Source of the DNA: Cladopsammia gracilis
Taxonomy: Eukaryota; Cnidaria; Anthozoa; Scleractinia; Dendrophylliidae
NCBI GenBank assembly: GCA_022457155.1
Contig: JAJGOT010000163.1
Location: forward strand, 702,001 to 766,000
Length of the DNA stretch: 64,000 bases
Direction of reading: 5' to 3'
Shown here one piece after another: positions 1,458-62,161 of the stretch. How positions within the stretch are numbered: the stretch's first letter is position 1; each line of letters starts with the position of its first letter. The translations under genes were made by a program, and so were the position numbers. The notes under the pieces are model-generated. The model made no database searches and was not told the DNA's origin. It worked only from the letters and a program-made list of their open reading frames with translations.

Positions 1458-1493
1458 TATTGTACCAGGTCTTTTCAATATTCAGAATAAATA

Positions 1494-1684: not shown

Positions 1685-2305
1685 TATTGATGTTTTGGTA
1701 GCTCGATTAGAAAATGCTAATGAGGCAAAAATTGTAAACAAATATTCGCCAATAATAAAGTCGTCTTTCATTACCCGACCCACTACATTTACCTACTCCC
1801 ACCACGCAACGCTCCGTTTCCTTTTTAGCAATGTCTGAAATAAATGTACAATTAAAGATGGAGGTGAAGATGTAAAATTCTCTTGTCGTGTTGAATTCGA
1901 TATCTCGATATCTTAGTGTTTAACACTCGAAGATAAATTTCATATCTCCGCGCACCCTTGTATTATCTTGTATATCAGTAACAAGCGCCAAAAAAATGCT
2001 CATATATAAGCGATGAATTAACTTTTCTTTCCTCAATGAAAAACGGAAAAAAACAAAACGTAAACGAAAGCAAAAAGCGTTCGGTGCCAATTTATTTTTA
2101 TTTTACCAAAAGAACCTATTTAGTGACCTATTTTCGAAAATCGGATTAAAAGTATCGATTTATTTTGCCTTTTACACAGTCAAATTTGAACAAAGGACCT
2201 ATTTTCAGCACCTTAGCAATACCAGAGGGGACTGCAAAATTTTACGAAAAAGTAAAATGCAGTCTAATGTGTTCTTTTTAAGGTAAAACATAACACTGCT
2301 TTATA

Positions 2306-2891
2306 CAGTGAAACCTGTATTAAGCGGACACCATTTTAAGCGGACACCATCTATTAACCAAAAATATTTATTTTGTTAGTTAATGCACTTGTTGAACTTA
2401 GAGTTTCTTTAAACAAGCAAGACTCGTCAGTACTGGTCTCTTTGCAAATGTTTGTGTCAATTTCAGCACAGGGCAAAAAGTTAGAGAGGAGGGGTTGATG
2501 GCACAAGCCCTCAAACTTTCAACAACAGGACACAGCCCAAAATTGAAGGAAGGGGTGTAAATAATTTGAAATTATAGCTTGACCAGGAAATTTAGTTAGG
2601 CCCAATACAGTAGGAACAGTATAGTTTTTTTCATCTAATGTGATCCAAAGTGTCAGGAATGCTTGTCACGTGACCTATCGCGGCCCAAACAGCAACCAAT
2701 GCCCTGAATTTAACCCTTACACACACACACACACAAACAAAATAAATCAACAATCCTAAACCTTACACCAGTATAAGTTAGGCATAACCCTAGCTTCCAC
2801 CCGGTGGTGTCTTAATTCCTGGTCACGGAATTGTTCTCTTTAAACGGACACTGGTTTCTTGAGTCCCTAAATTTTCTTCCCATATTTACTG
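2306..2891. mobile_element. Possible pogo/Tigger-like remnant
   Basis: The left end is TA followed by CAGTGAAACCTGTATTAAGC, a sequence of the style seen at pogo/Tigger ends. The right end is ACTG followed by TA. The inner parts of the ends match poorly, so the terminal repeat call is weak. A second AACCTGTATTCAGCGGAC motif lies just outside at 2,898. A copy with the same borders exists at about 20,718-21,262 within the duplicated unit. Confidence 0.3.
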
Positions 2892-3040
2892 TAAAACGAA
2901 CCTGTATTCAGCGGACCCCTCTATTAAGCGAACACTAGCGAGGGTCACGAGGGTGTGCCTCCTTCCATGTACAAGAACTCCTAAAAGGCCAAGGGTAAAG
3001 CTCGTAGACCAGATCGAATTTCTTATCATTTCATGCTGGA

Positions 3041-3112
3041 GTTCGTGAATAAAAAGCAGGTGAAAGCCGTACCTCCAGGAGAATTTAAACAAACCACTGC
3101 GCTCCATCGACT
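3041..3112 (+). pseudogene. Degraded 72-nt LRR exon (unit 1)
   Basis: Aligned with the intact LRR exons, this stretch keeps the exact 72-nt length and reads VNKKQVKAVPPGEF then KQTTALHRL in the same phase. The leucine-rich-repeat pattern N-x-x-(V/L)-x-x-(V/L)-P-x-G-x-F is still legible. The expected acceptor TGCTAG has become TGCTGGA and the donor GTAAGT has become TTAAAA, so it can no longer splice normally. An equally damaged copy lies at 21,409-21,480, so the damage preceded duplication of the unit. Confidence 0.6.
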
Positions 3113-3743: not shown

Positions 3744-4782
3744 TAGCCTGGCGCTCGTTTTTTTTGTAGGCGAAATGTCGAGCGCGCGAGGGAGAAAGGG
3801 AGAGAAGGCGCCTGCAGCGGAGACCCTAGATTTCCATTCACGTGACAGCGCTGTATCAACTGTCAAAAATAGATTGAAACCAGATCGTTTCACGACATGA
3901 AACCGCATATTTCTTTTTCGCGGAAAGAAGCCGAATCGCCTTTCCTTGACTTTCATTGTTCTTGTTCGAAGACCTAACGGGAAAAATTAGCTTTTATATA
4001 AGGTTTATAGTTGCATAAAGCAAACGATGCAACGAACACTCTTATTTCAGCCCCGTCGAGGTTTCAACTGTGTGACGTTCGTCAATAATACACGTTGCGT
4101 TGAGCCAAGAATCTTGTGATTTCAGCGAGTTGATAGTCTCTTGTTCATCGCGGCTTCAGCTGACACGTACACGATGTTGTATTTGCCTCGGTGTATTCCT
4201 TCCAAACAGTCCAGTTTTTCGTTTAAGTCACACGCTGTCATTCCCATTGAATTTACTTCCAATACTCGATCGCGAATTGTGCTTTGTAGATAGGAAATAA
4301 CCATAATACTAGCAAAGCCAGTTCCTCTTTGTCGTCGTTTTCGCACCCCAATCATAAGCACAAATAGCCGAAAAATCAAACTTCTCCCGAATCCAGTTGG
4401 CAATACTATCATCAGATCTTTACCGTCAAAAAGGTGGCGCAATGCTTTTTGTTGTTCTGACTTCAAAGTATAAACCAAAACTTGGTGCAATACCATTCAA
4501 AACATTTTTCTGACATTTCATCTGCTTCCGTTAACATGCAGCATGTGTTTTTTGTTTACAAAACTCGAATTTCCATTGACTGACAGATTATGCACGAAGG
4601 TGACAGATAAATATCCAAGGGGCGATCTATAAACCAATGGGAATTTTCCGTATTCGTGGAGAATGTAAAAACAGGAAAACAAGGGTCTCCGCTGCCGGCG
4701 CCTCCTCTCCCCTTCGTGTGTTCCCCTCGCGCGCGCGTCCTCGAAATTTCACCCCATAAACCGGTAACTGCTATACAGGCTA
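3744..4782. mobile_element. TIR element carrying a helicase fragment, inside Crypton
   Basis: The element begins TAGCCTG and ends CAGGCTA. It is flanked by a 9-bp target duplication with one mismatch (AAGTTTTCC at 3735-3743, AAGTTTTTC at 4783-4791). Subterminal inverted repeats of about 45 bp contain CGCGCGAGGGAGAAAGGGAG on the left, with a related complement on the right. It interrupts a tyrosine recombinase reading frame, and the only coding content is a broken SF2 helicase fragment on the minus strand. A second copy, truncated on its left, ends at 23,124. A 9-bp duplication is typical of Mutator-like elements; the superfamily is not proven. Confidence 0.6.
4122..4496 (-). pseudogene. RecQ-like SF2 helicase N-terminal fragment
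   Basis: The minus-strand reading contains LKSEQQKALRHLFDGKDLM, then LPTGFGRSLIF, which matches the Q-motif/Walker A region of RecQ-type DEAD-like helicases, where the usual form is LPTGFGKSLIF. The catalytic lysine is arginine here, predicting loss of ATP hydrolysis. Downstream residues fit motif Ia and Ib regions (VISYLQSTIRD, CLEGIHRGKYNIVYVSAEA). Nothing beyond the N-terminal third is visible, and no helicase C-terminal domain follows. The fragment is the cargo of the 3,744-4,782 element. The paralog at 22,512-22,853 also carries the K-to-R change, so both derive from an already dead copy. Confidence 0.6.
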
Positions 4783-12539: not shown

Positions 12540-14262
12540 TGCTAGAGGCGAACTACTCAGAAGAATTTACAACTCGCACCTGGGAGTTAATGGTTGCCTT
12601 AACAGAGCGCGCGAGTGTCTTAATTGGCCTGGCATGACAGGGGACAACAAGAATAACGTGTCAACCTGTGAAGCTTGCAGAGAATATGAGCGGGGCCAGA
12701 CCAAGGAAACATACAGCATACATATATACTTTATTCGTCCCAAAAGGGCTTTTCAGAATAAAGAGTAAATTAAGTAGTTAATTAACAAATAAATAGATAA
12801 CAAATTGATAATTAATTAATCATTTCTATATCAATTAAATTAATAAAATAAAAAATAACAATAGAAAAAGGCAATTAAGTATCTAAGAAAATTGAGATTA
12901 GGCTCCTCTTCAAGCAACGTTTGAAGTCCTTTAGTGTCGGTTTCCACTTATAAGTCATGAAACAACAAGTCAGCTATGGCAGTTCGTTGCAGCGGATCTC
13001 TTTGAGTTGGACGGAAAGGGCTACTTGGTGACTTCCGACTATTTCAGTGATTTCTTCGAACTCGACCATCTCAGAAGCATAACTTCAGTGTCAGTGATTA
13101 AGAAGCTCAAAGCCCATTTCGCGAGGCATGGTATTCCAAAGCACCTCGTCACCGACAACGGACCACAGTTCGTTTCGCGCGATTTCATAAAAATTCACCA
13201 CGGAGTTGGACTTTGAGCATCGTACAAGCAGTCCTCATCACAGCCAAGGAAATGGCAAAGCTGAGAGCGCAGTCAAGGAGACAAAGAAGATCCTTGTTAA
13301 GTGTAAGAAGACTGGCTCGGATACGTTCCTCTCCCTACTGGATCATAAATATACACCGCCCGCTGGTGTTCAAATAGGGAGCTTAAGCTACCACGACGGC
13401 GACGGCAGCGAGAACGGCACAAAACAATAGGTTTAATGAGCGAAAACAATGCCTCTGCACGCGCGTTTCACATTTTGGAACATTTCTTTGCCGTTCTCTG
13501 CAAAACAACAACGTCAAATAATCAAATTATAGGTTTTGTGGAGAACGCGAACACACGACGATAAATTTTTCTTTCTCCATTTGAACTGGAAAGCCATCCC
13601 TTCAAATTCAGCTCCTGAACAATCCGGTCACATTAGACAAACTAAACAAATTGGAACAACTGCTTAGTAGTTTAAAATAGCGCGAATCCTTTTTTCAAGT
13701 GACGTTTTCCTTGGCGTTGCCGTCGTCGTTGCTTAAGCTCCCTATTAGCCCGGCCCAACGCCTTCTCAGTAGAAGGAGAAGAAGTCTATTACCTATGTCT
13801 GCTGCACTGCTGAAACACAAAATAGTTGACAAAGATGTGACTCGTACGAAACTTTGTTCGCGCCAGCAACAACAGTCTCGTTTCTATGACAGAAATACTC
13901 GTGAACTTCCACCCTTAGACCCTGGCGACCCTGTGAGAATCAAGCCCTGGCAAATGAGCAAGAAAGAGTGGCAGAAATGTGTTGTCAGAAAACGCTTAGA
14001 TCAGAGATCTTATGAAGTTGAGCTTCCACAAGGCGTCCTACTTAGAAACAGGATACCCCTTAGGAAGACTCGTGATGAGCAGTATTACGAATCACAATCT
14101 CAAGCTCCCGCCAGTGAGACTCTAGAGCAGTCTCATGAGCCGCAGTCTCAAGCTACCACTGAAGTTCACCCGCTCACTCTTCCTAGGAGCGCACCCGAAT
14201 TAAGAAGATCTCAGAGCGTCCGCCAAGTCCCAAAACATCTAAAGGACTATGTTCTAACCTAA
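12540..14262 (+). pseudogene. Ty3/gypsy pol 3' fragment (integrase), copy 1
   Basis: Three pieces of one integrase. At 12,540-12,716 is the HHCC zinc-binding motif region (HLGVNGCLNRARECLNWPGM, then VSTCEACREYERG). At 12,963-13,376 is the catalytic core, with the three acidic sites in context (AADLFELDGKGYLVTSDYF, HLVTDNGPQF, SSPHHSQGNGKAESA). At 13,743-14,262 is the C-terminal region (SPAQRL, then basic and proline-rich tail). An about 220-bp AT-rich insert splits the zinc domain from the core, a frameshift lies near 13,210, and a MITE (13,377-13,742) interrupts the rest. Reverse transcriptase and LTRs are absent. The element is dead. Copies at 28,448-31,040 and 33,936-39,821 share the same 5' truncation point. 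Confidence 0.75.
13377..13742. mobile_element. MITE (GGGAGCTTAAG ends) in gypsy integrase, copy 1
   Basis: Terminal repeats GGGAGCTTAAGC and its complement are followed inward by CACGACGGCGACGGC and GCCGTCGTCGTTGC. It sits between the integrase words AGVQ and SPAQRL. The target duplication is short and not clean (TA or TTA), which would fit a Harbinger or mariner type. An equivalent insertion is at 30,124-30,490, so it predates duplication of the block. Confidence 0.65.
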
Positions 14263-14463
14263 GCAATTAAGCCGCTAACTGTCACAGCTTAGGGACTCGT
14301 ATTTCTTTTTGCGACACGTTTAGTTACTTTTTTTTCATAATTGGGAGGGTGTCATAATGTGTTAAAATATGCGTAATTTATTATTATGTGTAATTTATTT
14401 TTCGACAACAAGTGTGTAAGTGTCAGTCTCGAGATGTCCGATTCGAGTTAAGATCTCAGTTTA
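14263..14463. other. Gypsy 3' flank
   Basis: About 200 bp shared by the copies at 31,041-31,239 and 39,822-40,021. It contains a duplicated GTAATTTATTATTATGTGTAATTTATT motif area. No gene. Confidence 0.4.
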
Positions 14464-14935
14464 TTAAAGCTTTTCCTTCGCTTTTACGACGTTTTCCGTG
14501 CTGATATTACAGTGTTCTTCCCTGGCAGATTTGTACGATTTTAAGCTTTCAATGCTTTTGTGTCCGTTTCGTTGGTTCACAAAGTAATCTGGTGTGTTTG
14601 CATCAAGGAGCCTTGAAAAACAACTTTTCCTCACAGGGTGGTTGCTTATTTTAGAACCAGGTACCTGAATTCCGGATTTCAAGGAAGATTTGGACAAAAC
14701 ACTTTTTAATTTCGTTTCTTTGATGATTTTGGTTCACCGTGTTGCAAGGAAAAAAGGAGCATCGGGCATGTTTATCACGACGGAAAGTGTTCAGGTCGCT
14801 TGTTGTTTTCTTCGATGTGTTTCTACTTTTCTTTGGGATCCAATAAAATTCACTGTCTGAATGTTCTTCATCTTCTGTATCTTTGTTACTGTTTCTTCCG
14901 CGTCGCACATTTTGCTTCCATTTAATTGTTTTCAA
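14464..14935 (-). pseudogene. Crypton tyrosine recombinase remnant, best preserved C-terminus
   Basis: The minus-strand frame 14,697-14,464 reads SKSSLKSGIQVPGSKISNH, then PVRK, later RNGHKSIESLKSYKSA, ending naturally in KAKEKL and stop. The H-x-x-R box, the GH motif and the likely nucleophile tyrosine of Crypton-type recombinases are all present. The N-terminal part (14,935-14,651) is in another frame and lacks the central domain, so this is a deletion derivative. Orthologous copies are at 31,240-31,743 and 40,022-40,538. All lie directly downstream of the gypsy fragment and convergent with it. Confidence 0.65.
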
Positions 14936-15485
14936 ACGTTGCTACGCTGTTTCCCGCGTGTGGACAGCAATGCATCAACATCGCTTATAATGGCCGTAGG
15001 CATTATGGGAGATTCCGGCCCCGAGTAATAGCTAATCACCGCGCGTTGATGAAGAAAAATCCTCAAGGTTACTTATTTTATTAGCAACCCCCACCACTCC
15101 TCCCCTGGCCTAAAAGGGTCAAGTTTTCAGAATATTGTTTGCATAAGACCCTTGTACAAAGATAGCAAAGAAAAATACGCAGCTTTGTTAATGCATAAGA
15201 AGTGATTTTAAGCCACGTTAGCAATTATGCTTCGTTGGGTGTGCTCGTTTTAGTAACAAGGAGTTAAAGCCTATCAGGTGCAGTGCCAAAATTCCAACGG
15301 ATATAACCCTTTAACTGGATATAATACTCATGAAAAATCCTTACTAAGTTAGAAAAGCTAATACCCGTGCGGTTAGTACTGTGATTATGCTGACTAATGC
15401 CTTTTCAAATTACGTGGAAACAAATGATAGAAATAAAATAGGTGAACTTATAACTAATGCAGGGGGTGTTATTCCGTGCTACTAG
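14936..15485. other. Intron-like block beta, copy 1, before LRR exon B
   Basis: Shared with 31,744-32,584 and 40,539-41,042, and partly with 25,084-25,496. It includes a pyrimidine-rich acceptor region ending TTCCGTGCTACTAG at 15,485. No separate gene. Confidence 0.5.
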
Positions 15486-15557
15486 GTATTTGAGTAACAA
15501 TCAGTTGAAGAACTTACCTCCAGGAGTGTTTAGACAAAACACTGCGCTTCAATACCT
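15486..15557 (+). CDS. LRR exon, type B (copy 1)
   Basis: Exactly 72 nt between CTACTAG and GTAAGTAA, phase 2 on both sides. It encodes YLSNNQLKNLPPGVFRQN then TALQYL, a textbook 24-residue leucine-rich repeat with the LPxGVF signature of secreted or receptor LRR proteins. Paralogous exons are at 25,497, 32,585 and 41,043. The 41,043 copy is identical, and the others differ at surface positions while keeping the LRR consensus. That pattern suggests selection on the fold for at least part of their history. It could be joined in frame to exon A copies. The host gene is unidentified. Confidence 0.7.
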
Positions 15558-16356
15558 GTAAGTAAAGCTCTCCAATTGTTACATAACAATGTTACTCCTA
15601 TTTTTATTACCTGATATAAAATAAGAATGTCATCACAAGTATAAATATGTCCTCTGCTCTGTACAAATCATCGAAATGCTTAATTCGGTTTACACTTCAT
15701 CCACGTTTACTTACGACCTTTCATATATTCTCCCGGAAATGGTAAAATACTTAAAGTAATAGATAAAATATGAGCGCGGAACCTGCGGCTCGCCATTGTA
15801 AATATTCATACATTTTTGTCGGAATATTCAGTATACGACTAATAAAAGAACAACGGCGATGGAGCTTAGTAGTATTCTGTAACAGGATTTACAAACCTTC
15901 ATTAATTTTTTATTACTTTTGTACTTTCCTTATGAATTATTAATGAATTTCATAAGTTATATTTAACAATTAGATTACGAGCTCGAGATTTCTATCGTGT
16001 GATAGTTGATGAGGGCGATCCCTCATCAACTATCCGACTATCACGCGATAGAAATCAAGAGCGAATAATCTAATTGTTTTAGTATAAATCTACTAGACGT
16101 TCAAAGCTTAATAACAAATACTCTTCACAGACACTTCGAAAACGCTAAGAAGCGGCCGCCATTAGGCTACTAACTCTACTCACTTTCTACAACAGAATAG
16201 ATAGTGAGTAGCGTAGCCATTAGAGAACAGCATTTGTGATAGAACGCTAGTATATTTATACTAGGGGGGTTGAGACTCTCACATAAAATTGACGGGGAAG
16301 CTCGTCGTACCTTTTAGGGGTCAAAATTGGCAGATTGGTACCGCTTATGGTACTTA
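15558..16356. other. Block beta, copy 1, after LRR exon B
   Basis: No gene. It ends in the unit-junction sequence (15,940-16,266), with a small hairpin GATAGTTGATGAGGGCGATC at about 16,000, and a truncated MITE-A start (16,267-16,356). The sequence then switches abruptly, at a shared TAAA, to a copy of 10,687 onward. Confidence 0.5.
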
Positions 16357-22511: not shown

Positions 22512-22853
22512 TCACACGCTGTCATTCCCATTGAATTTTATTAATACTTCCACTACTCGATCGCGAATTGTGCTTTGTAGATGGGAAATAACCACAATAC
22601 TAGCGAAGCAGGTTCCTCCTTGTCGTCGTTTTCGCACCCCAATCATAAGCACAAATAGCCGAAAAATCAAACTTCTCCCGAATCCAGTTGGCAATACTAC
22701 CATCAGATCTTTACCGTCAAAAAGGTGGCGCAATGCTTTTTGTTGTTCCGACTTCAAAGTATACGCGAATCCCTTTGAACTTAACTCTGACAAAACTTGG
22801 TGCAAGCACCATTCAAAACATTTTTCTGACATTTCATCTGCTTCCGATAACAT
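22512..22853 (-). pseudogene. RecQ-like helicase fragment, copy 2
   Basis: Minus-strand paralog of 4,122-4,496 with a slightly longer N-terminus (SEKCFEWCLHQVLSELSSKG precedes YTLKSEQQKALRHLFDGKD). It has the same Walker A lysine-to-arginine change (LPTGFGRSL). A frameshift truncates it after motif Ia. It lies in the second copy of the TAGCCTG element, whose right end is at 23,124. Confidence 0.6.
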
Positions 22854-25496: not shown

Positions 25497-25568
25497 GAAC
25501 TTGCAAAACAATCAGTTGAAGGACTTACCAACAGCAGTGTTTGGACAAAACACTGCGCTTAAATGGCT
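25497..25568 (+). CDS. LRR exon, type B-prime
   Basis: A 72-nt phase-2 exon between TGCTGCTAG and GTAAGTAA. It encodes NLQNNQLKDLPTAVFGQN then TALKWL. It is the most divergent of the type B exons but keeps every LRR consensus position, which suggests an older duplicate kept under constraint or simply little decay. The equivalent exon in unit 1 was deleted at the poly-C tract (10,242). Confidence 0.65.
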
Positions 25569-25800
25569 GTAAGTAAAGCTCTCAAATTATTACATAACAA
25601 TGTTACTCCTATTTTTATTACCTGATATAAAATAAGAATGTCATCACAAGTATAAATATGTCCTCTGCTCTGTACAAATTGTCAAAATTCTTAATTTGGT
25701 TCATACTTCACCCACGTTTCACTAACGACCTTTAATTTATATTCCCGGAAATGGTAAAATACTTAAAGTACGAATAAAGAACATTCGACGATAACATTAA

Positions 25801-32584: not shown

Positions 32585-32656
32585 GTACTTGAATAACAAT
32601 CAGTTGAAGAACTTACCTACAGGAGTGTTTAGACAAAACACTGCGCTTGAACAGCT
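32585..32656 (+). CDS. LRR exon, type B (copy 3)
   Basis: 72 nt between CTACTAG and GTAAGTAG. It encodes YLNNNQLKNLPTGVFRQN then TALEQL. Relative to 15,486-15,557 it has four amino-acid changes, all at positions that do not define the LRR fold. Splice borders are intact. Confidence 0.7.
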
Positions 32657-33935
32657 GTAAGTAGGACTCTCCAATTGTTACATTAAAATGTTACTCCTAT
32701 TTTTATTACCTGATATAAAATAAGAATGTCATCACAAGTATAAATATGTCCTCTGCTCTGTACAAATCATCGAAATGCTTAATTCGGTTTACACTTCATC
32801 CACGTTTTACTTACGACCTTTCATTTATTCTCCCGGAAATGGTAAAATACTTAAAGTAATAGATAAAATATGAGCGCGGAACCTGCGGCTCGCCATTGTA
32901 AATATTCATACATTTTTGTCGGAATATTCAGTATATGACTAATAAAAGAACAATGGCGATGGAGCTTAGTAGTATTCTGTAACAGGATTTACAAACCTTC
33001 ATTAATTTTTTATTCCTTTTGTACTTTCCTTATGAATTAGTAATGAATTTCATAAGTTATATTTAACAATTAGATTACGAGCTCTATCCGACTATCCGAC
33101 TATCCGACTATCACGCGATAGAAATCAAGAGCGAATAATCTAATTGTTGTAGTATAAATCTACTAGACGTTCAAAGCTTAATAACAAATACTCTTCACAG
33201 ACAATTCGAAAACGCTAAGAAGCGGCCGCCATTAGGCTACTAACTCTACTCACTTTCTACAACAGAATAGATAGTGAGTAGCGTAGCCAATAAGAGAACA
33301 GCATTCGTGATAGAACGCTAGTATATTTATACCAAATCTGAATAGCTTGTCTTTAAGCTCCAAAGGGTTCGTTCTGTTTATAGTGTATGACGTCAAACGA
33401 TGAAAGGTCCCCGAGGGGATGGCGCGGGGGGGGGGGGGGGGAGGGGGGAGGGGGGACTCTCACATAAAAATTGACGGGGAAGCTCGTCGTACCTTTTAGG
33501 GGTCAAAATTGGCAGATTGGTACCGCTTATGGTACTTAAATCTGAAATGATCACAGTTAGAATTATCATGGTACCTTTTACAGTATAAAGCCGAAAAAAT
33601 ATAACAGAATGACATGTGTTGTTTAAAGTGCCACTATGATCAAAAATATACATTTTCTGTTCTCTTCATATTTTGAAAATATAAGTACTCGTTACTTACC
33701 TTGCGAAGTTTTAAGTCAAAACTCGTACGGGAAGTGCCATTATTTTAACTTTACATTTCGAATTCGGCTTGCAGCCATTACTCAAATTCAAAAATGGCCC
33801 GGATCGAACCCTGAGAGTTAGATCGAGTTGGCCTAAATATTTTGTGACGTCAATGACTCAACACATGCTTTTTGGCTGTGTTGTCTGTGACCCGGGAGGG
33901 AACCGCGTTTAGTCATTGACGTCACAAATCAAGTC
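32657..33935. other. Block beta end, unit junction, truncated MITE-A with nested MITE
   Basis: Paralogous to 15,558-16,356 and then to 44,965-45,460. MITE-A starts at about 33,425 in a G-rich tract. The TTAA-type MITE starts at 33,627 and is cut at about 33,935, where the sequence jumps into gypsy integrase. No gene. Confidence 0.5.
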
Positions 33936-35056: not shown

Positions 35057-37741
35057 TTGAAGACAGAACTTACTTGTTTTACACCGAAAAAGAAAAGAAA
35101 AACTTTGCTGTCTCACGATAGCAAAACAAAAAAAAAAGGAGAAAGAAGGTTTATTCATTTAAACCTTATGAAAAAGAGTGGTCCCAAAGGCTACTACAAT
35201 TTACGTCAAAGATTCCGTGTAATTTCTGGATCGTCCCAGAAGAAATCCACCTCAGACCAACAATCATCAGAACATGAAACCGAATATTGCAGTCAGTACA
35301 ACCAAGAAAACGTAGACGAAAATCCTGAGCCGTGTCACCTTTGCCTACAAGAAACAACGGATAATTCAAGCAGAATCAACGCATCCGAAGTTGAAATCGA
35401 GGATCATACCTCACAGAATACAGATCAATCAGCATCACCGTCAATTTTACACGAAATAAACGCCTCAAAAGGAAATCCAGAATCAGTTGTAAGGCCGCGC
35501 GCCGAAAGAACAAGTACATCAAGCGAATCAAGTTCAAATCATACCGGCGAAGGAAGCGACTCAGAAGATTCATTCGAAGAAAATACGCCTCTAATTTCCG
35601 TATCAAAAACCCCAAGAAAGTTATTTAATAACAGTCAAGAAGAAAATACAGAAGAAAACGAACAATCCGAAGGACAGCAACATTTATTAGCTTACAACGG
35701 AAACTCAAGCGAAGAAGATTTAGCCAGACCCACAATGGATACAAGTACCTTGGAAGGATTACAACAATCCATAACAGAATTACAGCAACAGTTGGGCCGA
35801 GTTACCGACGCAGCCCAGGAAATGGATCGAAATTATTCCTCCCCAGGTCTAACGGACACGATAAAACCGACTTTATTTCACGGATACCAAAGCGAAAATC
35901 TTGAACGATGGATGGAGAAATTTCGCCTTCACTTAGAACGCCGTCGTATTAGGACCGAAAGTAAAGCTGCGTTGGCTGAACTTGCCTTGCACTTAGCAGG
36001 TCCAGCTGAGTCATTCTTCCATTCACTTCCTGCGAGTGACAAGGATGATTTTGAAACTCTCTACAACATGTTACGCGAACGTTTCTCCTCGAAGGATAGA
36101 GTATGGCGTATGAGACAGAAATTATCTGCTAGGAAACAGGGGCCATACGAGCCTCTGGACAAGTATATAGAAGATCTTCAACATATTTTCGATAGCCTTG
36201 ACCTAACTGAGGAAGAAAAAGTCTGGTTTTTTACCCAAGGCCTACACGCAGATACCCAAAGAGAAGTTTTAATGCGGCAACCGAGGACCTTTAGAGAAGC
36301 GGAAAATACTGCCCGTTTAACTCAAACAGTCCAACAATCACTTAAAGAATCACAAGGCAACAACGCTATTGCTCATATACAACAACAGTTAAATACCATG
36401 ATGTCAGCTATGGCTACTAAAGGACCCGTCAAGCCGGAAGCCACTATCTCTGCCTATCAGTACTCGTCCCAGTCCTCCCCCGGACTTAACGATAAACTGA
36501 CACGCCTTGAAGCAGATGTACAACAAATTATGAACATAGTTGGAAGTCGTCCACGAGAGACCGAAGTTATAGAGCCTAAACTTGCCGCTTATCAACCCAC
36601 CCTCGGATCAGAAGCAGAACAGGAACTAAATATCTCACGAGAACAAGTCCGTCAACTCAGCACCGAAAATCAGACTATTGCAGCTTATCAGCCAGCTCCC
36701 AATGGTGATTCAGATGAACTTCGCCGTTTAAAAGAAGAGAACCGTCTCCTAAAAACAGTCCAACGTGGACCGCAACAAACTCAACAGAGAAACCCTGATA
36801 ACTACGGGAAAAACGAACCATACCGGAGAATTGAATCCGATGTTTCTCACGCGTTGAATGAAATACGTAAAATGCAGTCACGCATAGATGGATTCATGCG
36901 GGTTTACGCTTCCCGAAACAATAGGCAAGAACAGCCGAGAGTCCGAACTCGTGAAGGACGGCCGGTTTGTGAAATCTGTGGTCGAATTGGTCACGTCAGA
37001 CAAAGTTGTTACTCGCGAGGCGAACAAAGAAACCAGGATTTCAGGCAGCAAAACGCTCCGTCACGCCAACAGTCAGGCCCACGAATCGCCGCCATGGGAA
37101 TCGAGTCTTCTAAAGAGCAAAAAGTAATTGCCTCGTGTATACATCGGGTGCCGCAAAGACCTGCTGCTACACCCACCACACAAAACAAAGAAGTTCAGAC
37201 CAACCAAGCACAAATGCAACAAAATTGTGACCCAGTGAATACTACCAAGTTGGACAAGCCTACAAACTCAGTTTCTTCAAAGAACAAACAGCACCACGAG
37301 CAGAGCAAGCAAGAAGCGCCAGCTGAAAAGGTTTATTATGCAAGACGAAGTCAACCACCGATAACTGCGAATACGGAAGTGCCAACGATTAACACCTTCG
37401 AAGCGGTCGAACTATATAGTTCAACAATGAAGAAAGAAGCCACAAGAAACGAGCAAAAGAGCGAAATTAGGCCTGATCCCGATACTACTTCAATCACAAT
37501 TCCGTCCGAAGACCAAAACTCCACAGTTAAAAACAAACAGGAGATAATCATTCGACTGGAAGTTTACACCGACTGCAAGCCAAGTACTTCGACAAAAGTA
37601 ATTGTAACGCCCTCCAAAGTCGAAGAAAACCTCAGGTTGGAAAACGTGAAACCAACAGTTACCAAAAGGCTCCACCTTGTCACGGATCAAGCAGTCAATG
37701 AAGCAAATTACCACTCCGACACCTTTGAAGTCAACCACTAG
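35057..37741 (+). CDS. gag: Retrotransposon Gag polyprotein
   Basis: An uninterrupted 894-codon frame. Residues 1-230 are polar and acidic/serine-rich and of low complexity. Residues about 232-258 form a glutamine-rich coiled coil (ITELQQQLGRVTDAAQEMDR). Residues about 275-430 match the retrotransposon gag (capsid) fold (LFHGYQSENLERWMEKFRLH, then ALAELALHLAGPAESFF and YIEDLQHIF). A single CCHC zinc knuckle CEICGRIGHVRQSC lies at 638-651. The C-terminal 230 residues are basic and disordered. Gag would package element RNA. It is unusually long for a Ty3/gypsy gag. Its preservation although pol is gone suggests recent mobilisation in trans, or simply youth. The first ATG lies 231 bp after the 5' LTR. 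Confidence 0.85.
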   Translation: MKTELTCFTPKKKRKTLLSHDSKTKKKGERRFIHLNLMKKSGPKGYYNLRQRFRVISGSSQKKSTSDQQSSEHETEYCSQYNQENVDENPEPCHLCLQETTDNSSRINASEVEIEDHTSQNTDQSASPSILHEINASKGNPESVVRPRAERTSTSSESSSNHTGEGSDSEDSFEENTPLISVSKTPRKLFNNSQEENTEENEQSEGQQHLLAYNGNSSEEDLARPTMDTSTLEGLQQSITELQQQLGRVTDAAQEMDRNYSSPGLTDTIKPTLFHGYQSENLERWMEKFRLHLERRRIRTESKAALAELALHLAGPAESFFHSLPASDKDDFETLYNMLRERFSSKDRVWRMRQKLSARKQGPYEPLDKYIEDLQHIFDSLDLTEEEKVWFFTQGLHADTQREVLMRQPRTFREAENTARLTQTVQQSLKESQGNNAIAHIQQQLNTMMSAMATKGPVKPEATISAYQYSSQSSPGLNDKLTRLEADVQQIMNIVGSRPRETEVIEPKLAAYQPTLGSEAEQELNISREQVRQLSTENQTIAAYQPAPNGDSDELRRLKEENRLLKTVQRGPQQTQQRNPDNYGKNEPYRRIESDVSHALNEIRKMQSRIDGFMRVYASRNNRQEQPRVRTREGRPVCEICGRIGHVRQSCYSRGEQRNQDFRQQNAPSRQQSGPRIAAMGIESSKEQKVIASCIHRVPQRPAATPTTQNKEVQTNQAQMQQNCDPVNTTKLDKPTNSVSSKNKQHHEQSKQEAPAEKVYYARRSQPPITANTEVPTINTFEAVELYSSTMKKEATRNEQKSEIRPDPDTTSITIPSEDQNSTVKNKQEIIIRLEVYTDCKPSTSTKVIVTPSKVEENLRLENVKPTVTKRLHLVTDQAVNEANYHSDTFEVNH

Positions 37742-39570: not shown

Positions 39571-39821
39571 TTAGAAACAGGATACCCCTTAGGAAGACCA
39601 GTGAACCGGCTCCTAAAGTTGCTGACACTCGTGATGAGCAGTATTACGTATCACAATCTCAAGCTCCCGCCAGTGAGACTCTAGAACAGTCTCATGAGCC
39701 GCAGTCTCAAGCTACCACTGAACTTCACCCGTCCGCTATTCCTACGAGCGCACCCGAATTAAGAAGATCTCAGAGCGTCCACCAAGTCTCAAAACATCTT
39801 AAGGACTATGTTCTAACCTAA
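39571..39821 (+). pseudogene. Gypsy copy 3, right piece
   Basis: Continues the integrase tail interrupted at 34,021 (RNRIPLRKTSEPAPKV onward, ending HLKDYVLT and stop). The duplicated TTAG marks the junction. It is followed by the same 200-bp 3' flank as the other copies. Confidence 0.7.
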
Positions 39822-40021
39822 GCAATTAAGCCGCTAACTGTCACAGCTTAGGGACTCGTATTTCTTTTTGCTACACGTGTATTTACTTTTTTTCATAATA
39901 GGGAGGGTGTCATAATGTGTTAAAATATGCGTAATTTATTATTATGTGTAATTTATTATTCGACAGCAAGTGTTTAAGTGTCAGTCTCGATATGTCCGAT
40001 TCGAGTTAAGATCTCAGTTTA

Positions 40022-40538
40022 TTAAAGCTTTTCCTTCGCTTTTACGAAGTTTTCCTTGCTGATATTACAGTGTTCTTCCCTGGCAGATTTGTACGATTTT
40101 AAGCTTTCAATGTTTCTGTGTCCGTTTCGTTGGTTCACAAAGTAATTTGGTGTGTTTGCATGAAGGAGCCTTGAAAAACAACCTTTCCTCACAGGGTGGT
40201 TGCTTATTTTAGAACCAGGTACCTGAATTCCGGATTTCAAGGAAGATTTGGACAAAACACTTTTTAATTTCGTTTCTTTGATGATTTTGGTTCACCGTGT
40301 TGCAAGGAAAAAAGGAGCATCGGGCACGTTTATCACGACGGAAAGTGTTCAGGTCGCTTGTTGTTTTCTTCGATGTGTTTCTACTTTTCTTTGGGATCCA
40401 ATAAAATTCACTGTCTGAATGTTCTTCATCTTCTGTATCTTTGTTACTGTTTCTTCCGCGTCGCACATTTTGCTTCCATTTAATTTTTTCAAACGTTGCT
40501 ACGCTGTTTCCCGCGTGTGGACAGCAGGGCATCAACAT
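40022..40538 (-). pseudogene. Crypton remnant, convergent with gypsy copy 3
   Basis: Nearly the same as 14,464-14,935: C-terminal frame 40,255-40,022 with SKISNHPVRK, RNGHRNIESLKSYKSA and KAKEKL; N-terminal frame 40,538-40,209 starting MLMPCCPHAGNSVATF. The two frames overlap out of phase, and the central recombinase region is deleted. Confidence 0.6.
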
Positions 40539-41042
40539 CGCTTATAATGGCCGTAGGCATTATGGGAGAATCCGGCCCGGAGTAATAGCTAATCACCGCG
40601 CGTTGATGAAGAAAAATCGTCAAGGTTACTTATTTTATTAGCAACCCCCACCACTCCTCCCCTGGCCTAAAAGGGTCAAGTTTTCAGAATATTGTTTGCA
40701 TAAGACCCTTGTACAAAGATAGCAAACAAAAATACGCAGCTTTGTTAATGCATAAGAAGTGATTTTAAGCCACGTTAGCAATTATGCTTCGTTGGGTGTG
40801 CTCGTTTTAGTAACAAGGAGTTAAAGCCTATCAGGTGCAGTGCCAACATTCCAACGGATATAACCTTTTAACTGGATATAATACTCATGAAAAATCCTTA
40901 CTAAGTTAGAAAAGCTAATACCCGTGCGGTTAGTACTGTGATTATGCTGACTAATGCCTTTTCAAATTACGTGGAAACAAGTGATAGAAATAAAATAGGT
41001 GAACTTATAACTAATGCAGGGGGTGTTATTCCGTGCTACTAG
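40539..41042. other. Block beta, copy 4, before LRR exon
   Basis: Paralogous to 14,990-15,485 with few differences; no gene. Confidence 0.5.
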
Positions 41043-41114
41043 GTATTTGAGTAACAATCAGTTGAAGAACTTACCTCCAGGAGTGTTTAGACAAAACACT
41101 GCGCTTCAATACCT
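41043..41114 (+). CDS. LRR exon, type B (copy 4)
   Basis: 72-nt phase-2 exon identical to 15,486-15,557 with the same acceptor CTACTAG and donor GTAAGTAA. It is the last LRR exon seen in the window. The sequence up to 41,657 is again block beta (no gene). Confidence 0.7.
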
Positions 41115-41659
41115 GTAAGTAAAGCTCTCCAATTGTTACATAACAATGTTACTCCTATTTTTATTACCTGATATAAAATAAGAATGTCATCACAAGTATA
41201 AATATGTCCTCTGCTCTGTACAAATCATCGAAATGCTTAATTCGGTTTACACTTCATCCACGTTTACTTACGACCTTTCATTTATTCTCCCGGAAATGGT
41301 AAAATACTTAAAGTAATAGATAAAATATGAGCGCGGAACCTGCGGCTCGCCATTGTAAATATTCATACATTTTTGTCGGAATATTCAGTATACGACTAAT
41401 AAAAGAACAACGGCGATGGAGCTTAGTAGTATTCTGTAACAGGATTTACAAACCTTCATTAATTTTTATTACTTTTGTACTTTCCTTATGAATTATTAAT
41501 GAATTTCATAAGTTATATTTAACAATTAGATTACGAGCTCGAGATTTCTATCGCGTGATAGTTGATGAGGGCGATCCCTCATCAACTATCCGACTATCAC
41601 GCGATAGAAATCAAGAGCGAATAATCTAATTGTTTTAGTATAAATCTACTAGACGTTTA
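41115..41659. other. Block beta end and unit-junction sequence
   Basis: Paralogous to 15,558-16,110, including the GATAGTTGATGAGGGCGATC hairpin. It is interrupted after AGACGTT by the paired-domain transposon and continues at 44,728. Confidence 0.5.
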
Positions 41660-41838
41660 CAGTGCTGAGCGCCGAACCGTGAACACCTAACAAAGTTCGG
41701 TACAAGTTTTTGACAAGTTTTTGACAACTTTGATGAGTCGCGTCAGTTGACCAATCAGCATCGGTGGTTGAGAAAAGCGCGGGAGAGTCAACGGTAATCC
41801 TCGAGTTTTTCTTCTTTAGCTTCAGGCGCCAGAATATA

Positions 41839-43021
41839 ATGAATGCTTTTCCTATCAACGCTTGTAAGTATTCACCGACAAAACTCTATTTTAGTCAATA
41901 TTGAGGTGTTGCTGCAGTTCGAGATCGAGTTCTTTACTGTCAGTTCAGTTTCATTCATAAGATTTGTTTTCATTTTAGCCGGTGTACAGCTACGAGTGAA
42001 TAGTAGTGGAGGGATTTTTGACAATGGAAGGGCTCTACCAGATATGTACAGGGAAAGAATATTAGACCTGCACAACGAAGGATGGGGTCAGCGACAAATT
42101 GCACGAGAACTCCACAAGAGCGCAAGTTATATAAACAAAGTCGTTAGCCGCTATAACGAAGTAAATACTTCTCTTCGTCCCTTGAAACAATATTCACAAG
42201 AACCCCCAAAACTAGGACAAAATGCTCTAGAATTTATCGAAGTCCAAAAAATCCTAAAGCCAAGTGTTTACAGCCGAGAGCTTCAAGAGCGACTATTGCT
42301 GGACGGAGTGATCCATCCCGCAGATATACCAAGTGCATCCCAGATCAACCGAGTTGTCCGCGAAAAACTCGTCATGACCAGAAAAAAAAACAGTGTCATA
42401 CCCCTTGAGTCCATGACTCCGCAAAATCAACAGCGGATTGATGAATACCTTACTGAAATCTCAAACCTCGATTCTAACAGACTACATTTTTTCGACGAAT
42501 CCAGCGTGATAAGAACAACGGGAAACAGAAATTATGGCAGTGCTACATTAGGCGAAGTTGCTTTCGAGATGCAACGCTACGCGTCCAACGCCACTTACAC
42601 GCTCAACCTCCTACATTCCTTCCAGGGTGTAGATTATTATAACATTTTAGATGGACCGTCAAATGGGATGGAACTGTTACAGTTTTTTGATGAAGCATTG
42701 CAACTTGAGCGCGCAGATGGGAGCGCAGTTCTTGAGCGCCAAGACTGCATAGTAATGGACAACTGTGGCTTCCATCACGCGCGCCACATTGAACCCGTTC
42801 TCAGAAATATATTGGCAGAATGTGGGGTTCGACTCATATACCAGCCGCCCTATTGCCCCCAGTTCGACACCTGTGAGTTCTGCTTTCATCAGATCGAGGA
42901 ATATCTGCGAATGCACCAAATGTTGGCAGAACAAGAGACTAAAATAGCGATTGCTGATGCAGTTCTAAATATTTCGCCTGCAAACTCATTCGCCTATTTC
43001 AAGCACATTGGCTATTTCTAG
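41839..43021 (+). CDS. Transposase: Pax-like paired domain + Tc1/mariner-type DDE
   Basis: The best model has two exons, 41,839-41,863 (MNAFPINA) and 41,979-43,021, joined at GTAAGT and TTTTAG, giving 355 residues. An unspliced reading from 41,843 is also open. Residues 9-139 follow the Pax paired domain through both halves. The N-terminal turn VNSSGGIFDNGRALPD compares with the Pax VNxLGGxFxNGRPLPD form. A helix-turn-helix follows (RERILDLHNEGWGQRQIAR then ELHKSASYINKVVSRY). Then comes a RED-like half ending IPSASQINRVVREKL. Residues about 140-355 are a DDE_3 type catalytic core: D181 in HFFDESSV, D269 in VMDNCGFHH, E308 after PPYCPQFDTCE, spacing DD38E. Length fits Tc1/mariner transposases. 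It should bind the element ends and cut at TA. Confidence 0.8.
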
Positions 43022-43538
43022 TTTGGGGAAAAATTTCAATTCTATAGTTCCTCGGGACAAAAACAATCTGCCGCTATAGTATAACTAGCTTTTCTCCGAA
43101 TTGTAGCTCGTCAAAGAATGCAGTGTAAATTCGGACAATGTAAACATTGATAGTAATCAGAAAACTCAGAACAGTTGACATTTTATTCAGTCAAAAAATT
43201 TGTTCCATTTGTTTGTGATCTAACAAATTCGATACATAATATTCATATTCCTCGTTGGCATGAATAAAATAGATAGTAGATAATGAATACACAGAAATAA
43301 AATCAAACCAAGGAGTAATTTCTAAACAAGAACGTGATAAACATCAGGTCAAGGGCTCATAATGTGTTCCGTAAACAAACTAGTTCTTTTTGTTCTTTGT
43401 ATAAATAGCCAACAATTTCAATTTATGACCTGTTGTAAAGAGCTTACATTTTGCCAGGCATATAACAACAACAAAAACAGTTTCAAGACCTGAAATGAAT
43501 GAATCTTCATCAAAGTTTCAAGACCTGTTGTAAAAAAC
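43022..43538. other. Intergenic region between convergent transposon genes
   Basis: AT-rich, with AATAAA-type signals for both strands (for example at 43,261 and 43,301). A duplicated piece of the 3' end of the minus-strand gene (CTTACATTTTGCCAGGCATA) appears at about 43,442 and 43,538. No further gene. Confidence 0.5.
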
Positions 43539-44540
43539 TTACATTTTGCCAGGCATATAAATGTTTACATTAGATTTCTCGTATTGTTCTATTATCTGCG
43601 TGAGCCGCCAATCTTCACTTTCATCCCAATCAGGAACATTTCTAAGCGCTCGTTGAAGAACAAGGAGATCGCGATCCAGAATAGCTCTGTTCCCACTTCC
43701 ATATCGAAACATGTTTTGTGCTTTCAAGCGCGGTCTCATGACTGCAAAGAAAGAGCCCTTGCTTCTCTCGCGCGCAGCTTTGAAATTCTTGAGATTAGAC
43801 TCTTCGTCCACATACTTATTCTCTAGAACTTTGATTTCACGTTGAAGTTGTGTGATCTTTTGCTTTTCTTCAGGGTGTTTTTCCTTGATTTTGCATTTAT
43901 TTATGTCAGTACACGGTACACTATTACACGTTGTTTTAGTGTGACCGCCTTGGTGACAATTGTTGCAGACACGACCGCGAATTTCTGCTAGACTGCGAAA
44001 CTGCTGTTGGTTTAGATTTAGTTTCGCTAATTCTTCTTTCGCACTTGACAACTGAACTTTGAGAACCTGTAGGTTGTCCTCGATTTCTTTTTGTTGAGCG
44101 TCTAAGGGACTTCTGGGCTGATTTGTCGCACAAGCGGCGTTATTTGTAGGAGTCGTAGGAGTAAAGCACAAATGTTTTGGTTGTAATGCCGCCGTGTTCT
44201 CGTCGGAGTTATACTGCTCAGTTCGTCGGCACTTCCTGGGCATTGGAGAATCAACTTCATTTGCCTGAATATATATTTTTCTCAAGTCTCTATCGTTCAT
44301 AACCTTTGCACTTCTCAGCATTTCTTGAAAAGAAAAATCATCGTCCGAGCAAAGATTGACCATATCTCCATCTTCGTCGCGGAACCGAATCCTTATGTTT
44401 GAGGACGGCAGATGAGATAACGGCGAACAGTGCTTTTTGATCTGATTGAGAAGCGTTTCTAAAGATAAGTCACCATGATTGAGAAGAAAAGTGCTGAATC
44501 GTTTTTCGCCGTATTCAACCTTCACCTGATATGAAGCCAT
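43539..44540 (-). CDS. PB1-domain CCHC zinc-knuckle protein, transposon accessory gene
   Basis: 333 residues from the methionine at 44,540. The longer reading to 44,735 runs into the terminal repeat and is unlikely. Residues 1-95 form a PB1 domain with the acidic OPCA motif (RFRDEDGDMVNLCSDDDF), a module for head-to-tail protein pairing. A coiled coil (about 148-185), a CCHC knuckle CNNCHQGGHTKTTC (192-205) and a second coil (about 213-250) follow, then a conserved-looking C-terminal region rich in R and W (ALRNVPDWDESEDWRLTQII). It has no catalytic motif of a transposase. Its location inside the terminal repeats, convergent with the transposase, argues for a helper role such as oligomerising the transposase or binding nucleic acid. 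This is inference. Confidence 0.75.
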   Translation of the reverse strand: MASYQVKVEYGEKRFSTFLLNHGDLSLETLLNQIKKHCSPLSHLPSSNIRIRFRDEDGDMVNLCSDDDFSFQEMLRSAKVMNDRDLRKIYIQANEVDSPMPRKCRRTEQYNSDENTAALQPKHLCFTPTTPTNNAACATNQPRSPLDAQQKEIEDNLQVLKVQLSSAKEELAKLNLNQQQFRSLAEIRGRVCNNCHQGGHTKTTCNSVPCTDINKCKIKEKHPEEKQKITQLQREIKVLENKYVDEESNLKNFKAARERSKGSFFAVMRPRLKAQNMFRYGSGNRAILDRDLLVLQRALRNVPDWDESEDWRLTQIIEQYEKSNVNIYMPGKM

Positions 44541-44727
44541 TTTAGCGGGAAATGGCGAGATCTCGATACTATCGGGAAAGGACAAGAACAAACAAACGGC
44601 CAGGCCTCCAATAAATCCTGAGACGTGATTGGTTTGCGAGAAACTCAAACTCATCAAAGTTGTCAAAAACCTGTCAAAAACTTGTACGGAACTTTGTTGG
44701 TTGTTCACGGTTCGGCGCTCAGCACTA

Positions 44728-60634: not shown

Positions 60635-62161
60635 ATGCCTTCTTTTTGCCTCGTCGTAGGCTGTTCTAACGACAAAAAGAAAAATCGGGAGCTTTGCTTT
60701 TGTCGGGTGCCGAAAATTATCACCAATCAGGGAGAAGAAACCGAGATTTTGTCCACCGAAAGGCGTACTCGATGGTTAGCCGCCATTAGTCGAGCTGACT
60801 TGACAGAAAAAATTCTGGAGAACGACCGTGTATGCGGTATTCACTTTAAATCGGGAAAGGCTGCATATCTATGGGATAGATATAACCAAGACTGGGTTCC
60901 AAGTTTGAATATGGGGCACGACAAGCGACAGGAATCCGATGAGACGAAAGAACAGCAACAGCAAAGAGCTCAAAGGATAATCGAGAGGAGAAAGCGCGAA
61001 AGGGAACAGGAAGAGCAGCAAGCTGTGAAAAGGAAAGCTGCAAAGCTGGATGAGCCTGGAGAGCAAGTCCAAGATATTAACATGGGAGATGAAGTAGAAA
61101 CTTCTGGAGAAACTGCAGAGGAAGAGATGGAAGTGGATCAAAACATTGTAAATAATCCCTCCTCGCAGACCGATCGTAAATCGTGTAGCACACAAACAGA
61201 GGAGTGTGACTACATGTTTAGAGAACAAAACGCGTGGCTTCCAAAGAAATCTACTATTTTTGAAGAGGAGTATTTTGAAGGAGATGACGAGAAAGTACGT
61301 TTTTATACAGGTTTGCCTTCATTGGAGATATTAAAGAGAGCTTTCTCCTTTGTGTCACCCGAGGTATCCAGACGTCCTCTTGTCTTGAGTAAGTTTCAAG
61401 AGTTTGTTTTAGTTCTCATAAAGTTACGTCTTAGTGTACCACATCAAGACCTTGCGTATCGCTTTAATGTTTCAAGGGCAGTAGTTTCAAAAGTAATTGT
61501 CTGCTGGTTGGTAGCTATGGATGAGACATTGTCATCATTAATTTCCTGGCCAGAACGAGAACACCTACAGAGGACAATGCCAAGGTGTTTCATGGATTCC
61601 TTTCGCCTTAAAACAAGTGTCATCATTGACTGCTTTGAAGTATTTATTGACAGACCGTCAAATCTAGTAGCAAGAGCTCTAACATTTTCAAACTACAAAC
61701 ATCATAACACTATTAAATTCTTGATTGGTATAACCCCTCAGGGTACCATTTCCTTTGTGAGCAAGGCATGGGGTGGCCGAACCTCTGACAAATTTCTCAC
61801 AGAGAACTGTGGATTCTTAAAGAACTTAGTCCCTGGAGATCTTGTCCTCGCAGACCGAGGTTTTACTGTTCAAGAGGGAGTTTGGTTTCGCCAGGCTGAA
61901 CTCAACATCCCAGCATTTACCAAGGGCAAAAATCAGCTGGATCCTGTGGATGTTGAGACAACCCGTAAAATCGCAAATGTCCGCATTCATGTGGAACGCG
62001 TCATCGGCATCCTCCGACAGAAGTACACTATCCTTCAAAGTACGCTTGCAACAGACTTTCTAATGTGCAATGAGGAGAACCGAATTCCTTTGATTGATAG
62101 GATCGTGCGAGTGTGCTCTGCCCTGGTGAACCTTTGCCCGCCTATCATACCTTTCGATTAA
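60635..62161 (+). CDS. THAP-domain DDE_Tnp_4 transposase-like protein
   Basis: A single-exon 508-residue protein, complete from ATG to stop. Residues 1-92 are a THAP zinc finger (C5, C10, C67, H70, W47 and the P89 region), a sequence-specific DNA-binding module. Residues about 100-190 are an acidic/basic coiled region ([15 protein letters not shown]). Residues about 225-300 include a helix-turn-helix ([18 protein letters not shown]). Residues about 325-500 are a DDE_Tnp_4 nuclease domain with D332 (IIDCFEVFI), D407 (LADRGF) and E454 (HVERVIG). This architecture is known from ISL2EU/Harbinger-related transposases. No terminal inverted repeats were found nearby. The intact catalytic triad means either a young autonomous copy or a co-opted host gene. 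Confidence 0.8.

Follow-up and report, generated by a model that had tools for sequence, protein, structure and literature searches.

A recently mobile two-gene IS630-Tc1-mariner transposon of a coral, with a Pax-type paired domain and a probable origin in the lineage from which Pax descends

Pax genes build eyes, nerves and muscle, and one locus in the coral Cladopsammia gracilis raises the question of where their paired domain came from. Ivics (1996) and Breitling and Gerber (2000) are said to have noted that paired domains resemble Tc1-like transposases and to have derived Pax from them. In the window (the whole stretch of DNA analysed, 64,000 nucleotides of contig JAJGOT010000163.1), an intact open frame of 392 amino acids on the forward strand (41843–43021, or 41839–43021 from the predicted start codon) encodes a DD38E transposase with a full-length paired domain. 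The first-pass annotation saw in it an active-looking transposase that was either a surviving relative of the source of Pax or the product of a captured Pax domain. We conclude with good, though not complete, confidence that the locus is a recently mobile IS630-Tc1-mariner transposon with a Pax-type paired domain, from the lineage that Pax descends from.

The paired domain of the transposase is complete in sequence. The Pfam PAX profile (PF00292, curated cut-off 22 bits) matched residues 50–173 of the frame over profile positions 3–125 of 125, with 71.7 bits (E 7e-20). The first-pass annotation had proposed comparing this score with generic helix-turn-helix (HTH) profiles, and PAX came out ahead of all of them (HTH_38 29.1, HTH_23 25.0 and HTH_SB 17.2 bits; HTH_38 and HTH_23 also at cut-off). 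The PAX cut-off alone is a weak criterion because Sleeping Beauty passes it too, with 24.5 bits, over profile positions 18–123 only and with 98.8 bits for HTH_SB. Mos1 had no PAX match among the 25 families listed, while Pax-8, Pax-6 and Prd scored 235–242 bits, so that the transposase lies between Sleeping Beauty and Pax, and in bits nearer to Sleeping Beauty. The PAI and RED halves each score PAX separately: the first 50 residues of the domain alone gave 30.9 bits (HTH_38, 27.8), and the remainder (profile positions 51–125, with the PAI end, linker and RED) gave 33.4 bits and no other family. Removing the hairpin part lowered the score of the domain to 51.2 bits.

At E ≤ 1 the transposase matched only Pax-8, Pax-5, Pax-6 and Prd in the PDB; the paired domain alone matched Pax-8 at E 2.5e-18 and Sleeping Beauty at E 1.2. 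Identity to the four Pax chains was 34.7–37.7% (42–46 of 121–123 aligned residues); these chains have 69 invariant positions, and the transposase agrees with 34 of them. The N-terminal hairpin motif GGxFxNGRxLP is matched at the sequence level, and the Pax linker GxIGGSKP is absent, with LKQYSQEPP in its place. Two single-sequence AlphaFold models (mean pLDDT 38.7 and 50.3) put two strands at the right place, predicted at low confidence (pLDDT 54–65 in the hairpin block), and the best Foldseek matches, 6pax and 1pdn, had E values of 1e-5 and 3e-4 but TM scores of 0.16–0.19 and rmsd of 19–20. With such low pLDDT the models are too poor for a structural claim, and the proposed hairpin rests on sequence. 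The catalytic D, D and E are all there, the E being separated from the second D by 38 residues. DDE_3 matched above its cut-off with 48.5 bits, and the IS630 profile gave 94.5 bits over residues 24–316, just below its cut-off of 100.

That paired domain and catalytic core share one frame had been noted in the first-pass annotation, and this stands; the 392-residue frame itself has to be corrected for a predicted intron, the first 45 or so of its residues being noncoding in the predicted spliced model. The predicted product has 355 residues, starts MNAFPINASGVQLRVNSSGGIFDNGRALPD, and carries both domain and core within one exon (Table 1). In a relative on contig C984 (65% identity) the same intron can be spliced in frame. 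By eye, the present element has an AG 20 nt upstream of the motif's Asn codon, as do six of the 11 printed relatives (L048, L051, L052, L054, L058 and L059; not L045–L047, L057 or L060). In the Pax loci of the home genome, five of the six printed (L019, L021–L024) have an AG 14 nt upstream of the NQLGG Asn codon, in phase 1; in the sixth, L020, it is at 13 nt. The candidate acceptors in Pax and in the element would thus share their phase and lie two codons apart, a likeness that is suggestive only.

Table 1. Positions of the transposon and its parts in the window
Feature	Position	Strand	Basis
Complete DNA transposon with two genes, ca. 3,067 bp	41660..44726	.	Terminal inverted repeats; 18 full-length copies elsewhere
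Left target half TTA (target TTAA, TA duplicated)	41657..41659	+	Flanks of 18 copies, empty sites
Left terminal inverted repeat	41660..41738	+	Inverted-repeat search, copy alignment
Candidate PAI site TCACGGTT, left repeat, bp 16–23 from end	41675..41682	-	String match; ACC conserved
Transposase exon 1, predicted (ATG at 41839): MNAFPINA and first base of Ser	41839..41863	+	In-frame GTAAGT donor
Predicted phase-1 intron, 115 nt, GTAAGT...TTTTAG	41864..41978	+	Donor at 41864, acceptor ends 41978
Transposase exon 2: paired domain and DD38E core	41979..43021	+	Open frame, Pfam matches, triad
Paired domain (PAI + RED)	41990..42361	+	PAX profile 3–125 of 125
N-terminal hairpin motif VNSSGGIFDNGRALPD	41996..42043	+	Alignment to Pax-5/6/8 and Prd
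DDE_3 catalytic core, DD38E	42482..42937	+	DDE_3 match; IS630 profile 94.5 bits
Accessory gene, 333 aa: PB1, middle region, presumed zinc knuckle, conserved C-terminus	43539..44540	-	Convergent with transposase
PB1 domain of accessory protein	44289..44531	-	PF00564 32.4 bits, cut-off 23.6
Presumed zinc knuckle CNNCHQGGHTKTTC (CX2CX4HX4C)	43926..43967	-	Motif search
Right terminal inverted repeat	44649..44726	-	Outermost base and TA flank eroded in window copy
Candidate PAI site TCACGGTT, right repeat	44705..44712	+	String match

The first-pass annotation did not describe the intron, a second gene, the limits of the element or the damaged right end of the window copy, and its account has to be extended accordingly. 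The element is bounded by inverted repeats of 78 nt that are 95% complementary (41661–41738 and 44649–44726). Further copies with the same ends, which the annotation had proposed to look for, occur in the home genome; the 18 that were read each align over element positions 1–3067 at 99.77–99.87% identity, and every one has the left junction TTA|CAGTG and the right junction CACTG|TAA. These flanks point to a TTAA target with TA duplicated; piggyBac duplicates TTAA as 4 bp, and such a duplication is absent here, the flanks being TTA and TAA and not TTAA on both sides. The 15 gapless copies differ pairwise at 0–6 of 3068 bases (mean 3.7), and since all differences are private we interpret them as a recent burst. 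Near-identity of about 99.8% together with the TTA/TAA flanks thus indicates that the element moved very recently. The open 392-residue frame is found in 15 of the 19 copies, the window's counted; of the others, one is interrupted by a stop and three have 188 residues. Four changes are private to the window copy, apart from those at its right end, where the junction reads CACT|AAATAAC in place of CACTG|TAA, and with this end eroded it may itself be immobile. A 44-nt direct repeat (91%, 95 nt apart) lies at 43422–43465 and 43517–43560, the second unit at the end of the accessory gene.

The transposon interrupts a duplicated host segment (14068–16101 against 39627–41657, 98%). Of four paralogous sites in the window, three are empty and have the sequence GCTTAATAAC, and the fourth, at the window start, is diverged or deleted there. 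Compared with the empty sites, the window copy is without 7 bp (CAAAGCT) next to its left end and the right junction is altered; for these reasons no clean TA duplication is seen at this copy. Just left of the insertion is an inverted repeat with 42-nt arms (88%) at 41521–41634, also present in the empty paralogous copy at 15965–16078. LRR-like exons (YLSNNQLKNLPPGVFRQNTALQYL and variants) form a segmentally duplicated array (41044–41115, 15487–15558, 32586–32657 and 25501–25569), and the transposon lies about 540 bp downstream of one of them. Elsewhere the window holds a protein with THAP, HTH and DDE_Tnp_4 at 60635–62161, presumably of a Harbinger-like element, a gag frame of Ty3 type at 35057–37741, and DEAD-helicase-like fragments at 4122–4496 and 22512–22853 (21.9 and 27.7 bits, cut-off 26) inside a 90% duplicated block.

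The element belongs to a broad family. A first look at the 878-Mb home genome gave at least 573 PAX candidates, of which 150 were scored, and all counts are therefore lower bounds. The scored loci comprise 16 at 153–236 bits and 134 at 41–90 bits. Eight of the 16 high-scoring loci were translated and are 52–76% identical to the Pax-6 domain; the other eight are named Pax by score alone. The Pax-scoring loci are clustered, with seven of 16 on contig C987 and five on C1074. Among the 134 non-Pax loci, the match begins no later than profile position 6 in 125, so that the hairpin region is included, and at 10–15 in the other nine. Sixteen relatives (L045–L060) were read, some of them near-duplicates of one another; where they match the transposase, their identity to it is 44–65%. 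DD38E was found in 13 complete relatives and the window transposase (L049, L050 and L058 are incomplete). A strict hairpin motif, GGx[FY]..G[RK], occurs in the window transposase, in all eight translated Pax loci and in four of the 16 relatives, and a loose form in 15 of the 16 (not L057). The early-branching L045–L047 (PAX 85–90 bits) have a GG linker and lack an accessory match in the 5 kb around them; terminal repeats were sought in two early-branching copies, L066 and L067, and none were recognised. L045–L047 are possibly older or immobile. Searched with the transposase protein, neither a set of viral contigs nor a further set of genome contigs gave a match; the hairpin DNA pattern gave seven matches in the viral contigs, none with a paired domain when read, and a longer pattern gave none in the further genome contigs.

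The second gene of the element is convergent with the transposase and encodes a 333-residue protein. Its CX2CX4HX4C motif, which we take to be a zinc knuckle, was not reported by a Pfam scan of the protein, and against the PDB the protein gave weak matches to NBR1 and Cdc24 (E 0.018–0.02). A home-genome search gave at least 313 accessory candidates, of which 120 were scored. Within 5 kb, an accessory match was found beside 86 of the 134 non-Pax PAX loci and beside none of the 16 Pax-scoring loci; the chance expectation is about 0.0015 per locus. The 86 comprise 63 convergent matches, 18 on the same strand downstream and five on the same strand upstream. The 48 non-Pax loci without a match in this range include early-branching ones on C247, C1119, C979 and C518, and conversely 33 of the 120 accessory matches are more than 5 kb away from any scored non-Pax PAX locus.

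Six accessory proteins of other subfamilies (C984, C1222, C1076, C319, C244 and C489) were read. In Pfam, PB1 was above cut-off in that of C984 and just under it in that of C1222 (22.1 against 23.6), and the C1076 protein is PB1-like by alignment only. The proteins of C319, C244 and C489 (L064, L065 and L068) keep the zinc-knuckle part, with a SAM-like N-terminus replacing PB1; these N-termini are below the Pfam cut-off (SAM_2 12.7 in C319 and SAM_1 17.0 in C244) and have no SAM match in C489. PB1 and SAM are both self-associating domains, and by analogy with them the accessory protein probably helps to assemble the transposition complex.

Do the terminal repeats resemble Pax sites? Each contains the string TCACGGTT, which we take to be the Prd core. 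Its exact form occurs four times in the 64-kb window, both strands counted, and two of these occurrences are inside the repeats; the chance of this core in a random 79-nt stretch was 25 in 5000. Both ends also start TTACAG in the six other subfamilies (C984, C1222, C1076, C319, C244 and C489). Over seven subfamilies, taking one end each, the invariant repeat positions are 1–3 and 5 (CAG-G), 17–19 (ACC), 27, 31 and 38; positions 20 and 21 (GT) are kept in six of the seven, and the CA of the candidate site core varies. Read from the inside outwards, the repeat of the element contains TTCACGGTT. Among 5000 random 79-nt stretches, 81 did as well for another Prd string and 242 for a P6CON string of 20 letters; for TTCACGCTTG at two mismatches the figure was 584 of 10000. 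A looser Pax consensus gave no signal in the repeat (2583 of 5000 random stretches as good), nor did P6CON as printed in 21 letters (4761 of 5000) in a source whose available text nonetheless gives the site as 20 bp (PMC3285655). In the accessible part of a Pax6 study, TTCACGC is given as a possible contact of PAI, and a TG downstream of it as one of RED (PMC7046147). The Pax-type site in the repeats, picked after the fact, is a candidate.

The origin of the domain was approached through bacterial IS630 proteins and phylogenetic trees. With tblastn, 531 plasmid records matched, 20 of them covering at least 80% of the transposase, with a best E of 5e-17 at 94% coverage; the best-covered 17 of the 531 are collinear over 92–99% of the transposase. 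On the HTH part of the IS630 profile, Pax domains score 28.9–30.5 bits against 27.9 for the transposase, and this match gives no direction because both do equally well. In the alignment, an extension at the N-terminus and an insert of five residues in RED are common to Pax and the transposons. The insert is absent from all seven IS630 rows that cover the region (L015 ends short there) and from Sleeping Beauty. The IS630 rows had been trimmed near the HTH for alignment, and the hairpin search used the untrimmed frames, where neither the strict nor the loose motif was found in any of eight; in one, L008, a similarly spaced GG precedes a Met, without F and N-G. The earlier statement that ordinary Tc1 proteins are without the N-terminal beta-turn is in line with this, the motif being absent from Sleeping Beauty, Mos1 and the eight bacterial IS630 proteins. 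Most IS630 rows have a GG in the linker (L015 reads GGHKPR), as do the rows of Pax-5/6/8/Prd type (IGGSKP) and L045–L047; the window transposase has none.

The paired-domain tree comprised 37 rows and 132 columns, with 16 transposon rows, sampled Pax and an IS630/Sleeping Beauty outgroup. Sampled Pax formed one clade (98/98) with all 16 transposon rows, and the window transposase, outside it, and Pax and transposons were separated from the outgroup at 99/98; the transposon domains held together at 67/49 and 66/0 only. Approximately unbiased (AU) tests gave p 0.45–0.50 when Pax was joined to L045–L047, to the main clade of transposons or to L057, and nesting of Pax among the transposons is thus not rejected. 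Four placements of transposons inside Pax were 8.4–9.6 lnL worse with all rows (p 0.043–0.077), and 6.9–8.1 lnL worse (p 0.11–0.14) in a reduced set from which nine long or redundant rows had been removed; these alignments disfavour the transposons being nested in Pax, and do not firmly reject it. In the reduced set Pax was supported at 98/94, and Pax with L045–L047 gave p 0.45. A catalytic-domain tree of 22 rows, in which Sleeping Beauty is a very long branch, joined the transposons at 96/95, with L046 branching first, then L045 and L047.

Which of the two directions left by the first-pass annotation do these data support? Had the transposon taken the paired domain of an early Pax gene, its own HTH region being replaced, the exchange would have had to be exact, since IS630 homology runs continuously from the HTH region through the core. 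Nor does capture sit easily with Pax forming one clade without any of the 16 transposon rows (98/98), or with the IS630-like GG linker kept by the earliest-branching transposons of the catalytic tree, L045–L047. It would agree with the candidate phase-1 acceptor just upstream of the domain in both Pax and transposon, the AU tests reject it marginally or not at all (p 0.043–0.14 over both sets), and the best tree has the domains of Pax and of the transposons as sister groups, between which the data do not fix the root. We regard capture as unlikely. Common descent of Pax and the elements from a paired-domain transposase is favoured, not proven, by the Pax clade, the IS630 alignment and the GG linker, and the annotation's suggestion of a relative of the Pax source gains ground to this extent.

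The remaining explanations deny a special tie to Pax or the transposon itself. If the likeness to Pax had arisen by convergence within generic Tc1 HTH domains, HTH_38 and HTH_23 at cut-off and Sleeping Beauty above the low PAX cut-off (24.5 against 22) would be expected; this is hard to reconcile with PAX at 71.7 against 17.2 bits for HTH_SB, with halves that each score PAX, and with 35–38% identity to Pax over 121–123 residues and 34 of 69 invariant residues kept, and we consider it very improbable. A domesticated host gene, to which the intact frame and eroded right end of the window copy could point, is the least probable reading in the face of the inverted repeats, the TTA/TAA flanks and 18 dispersed copies at 99.8%, with private differences in the 15 gapless ones.

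In the preferred reading the element most likely works as follows. The paired domain, with hairpin, PAI and RED, would bind a conserved block just inside either end of the element, in the inverted repeats; PAI would sit on the inner half, which resembles TTCACGGTT, and RED nearer the terminus. The DD38E core would cut at TA|CAGTG and join the ends to a TTAA target, with TA duplicated, and the PB1 and zinc-knuckle protein of the convergent gene (possibly SAM-like in other subfamilies) would aid assembly of the transposition complex. The transposon family and Pax would both come from a single paired-domain transposase lineage, itself from an IS630-like enzyme, with Pax having lost the catalytic core. 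If true, a phase-1 acceptor right before the paired-domain exon would be an arrangement for splicing a host exon on and so for a first Pax gene. The fuller proposal, in which a living Pax-source lineage binds its ends in the Pax manner, carries this acceptor and forms a distinct two-gene TTAA group with a self-associating accessory protein, is tentative; we give it slightly less than an even chance, the outcome with the 21-letter P6CON having lowered its odds a little. A recently mobile element makes the Pax-from-transposon idea directly testable, and provides material to ask whether the paired domain of the transposase reads Pax sites, whether its phase-1 exon can be captured, and which came first.

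How does the element compare with known systems? Like Tc1 and Sleeping Beauty, it has a bipartite HTH followed by a DDE core and moves by cut-and-paste at TA, and its ends, CAGTGCTG, presumably resemble those of Tc1. It differs from them in its TTA/TAA flanks, second gene and IS630-like C-terminus, and Sleeping Beauty is without the hairpin part and RED insert. With bacterial IS630 it shares a collinear protein, a K-K junction after RED, a C-terminal YF..GY (in several) and the GG linker (in most), and it departs from them in the hairpin motif (lacking in 8/8 frames) and RED insert (lacking in 7/7 covering rows). Like Pax genes it has a complete paired domain in sequence, preceded by a candidate phase-1 acceptor; unlike it, Pax has no catalytic core, has the IGGSKP linker that the element is missing, and in five of six loci places the acceptor 14 nt before the Asn, against 20 nt in the element. 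The proteins of RAG-like transposons are unrelated to those of the present element. As far as the available text goes, these transposons too have two convergent genes, one of them the transposase (PMC7204232). For plant MUGB genes, of Mutator origin, the accessible part of one paper links PB1 with a transposon and adds that PB1 is usually not associated with transposable elements; there it is an added exon of a transposase-derived gene, and here part of a separate gene of the element (PMC8616336).

Published accounts, as far as their text was available, state the derivation of Pax from a Tc1-like transposase on sequence similarity (PMC4901127, PMC8290160), and use 'paired domain' in Tc1/mariner work for the two-HTH region of transposases generally (PMC8533490, PMC10379824). 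PAX-domain counts given in part of another paper (PMC7642931: Hydra 61 and 57, Nematostella 9, Acropora 8, a jellyfish 23) were considered, and the Hydra counts were dropped as support, since Sleeping Beauty passes the PAX cut-off and they may be plain Tc1 proteins. This kind of transposase has already been glimpsed in print: four acorn worm and oyster transposases with a 'PAIRED domain similarity region' served as the outgroup rooting a Pax tree (PMC4901127). They are like the present one in carrying a Pax-similar region, a comparison made by description, and the available text on them describes no elements, repeats, activity, targets or second gene. A literature search of partial coverage, by title or start of abstract, found no two-gene element like this described. 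What is new, as far as these searches show, is a paired domain of full length that includes the hairpin motif, together with the element's recent activity, its target, its second gene and the breadth of the family. The element conforms to the IS630-Tc1-mariner group in its DD38E triad, its terminal inverted repeats and its duplication of TA (seen in all 18 other copies read; the right side of the window copy is not intact). Members of that group usually have one ORF, according to the part of a survey available (PMC8533490), a norm from which the present family departs, 86 of its 134 non-Pax loci having a match to the second gene nearby. Such a group, IS630-Tc1-mariner in kind but with a second gene that is conserved and with flanks from TTAA, may also serve as a genetic tool.
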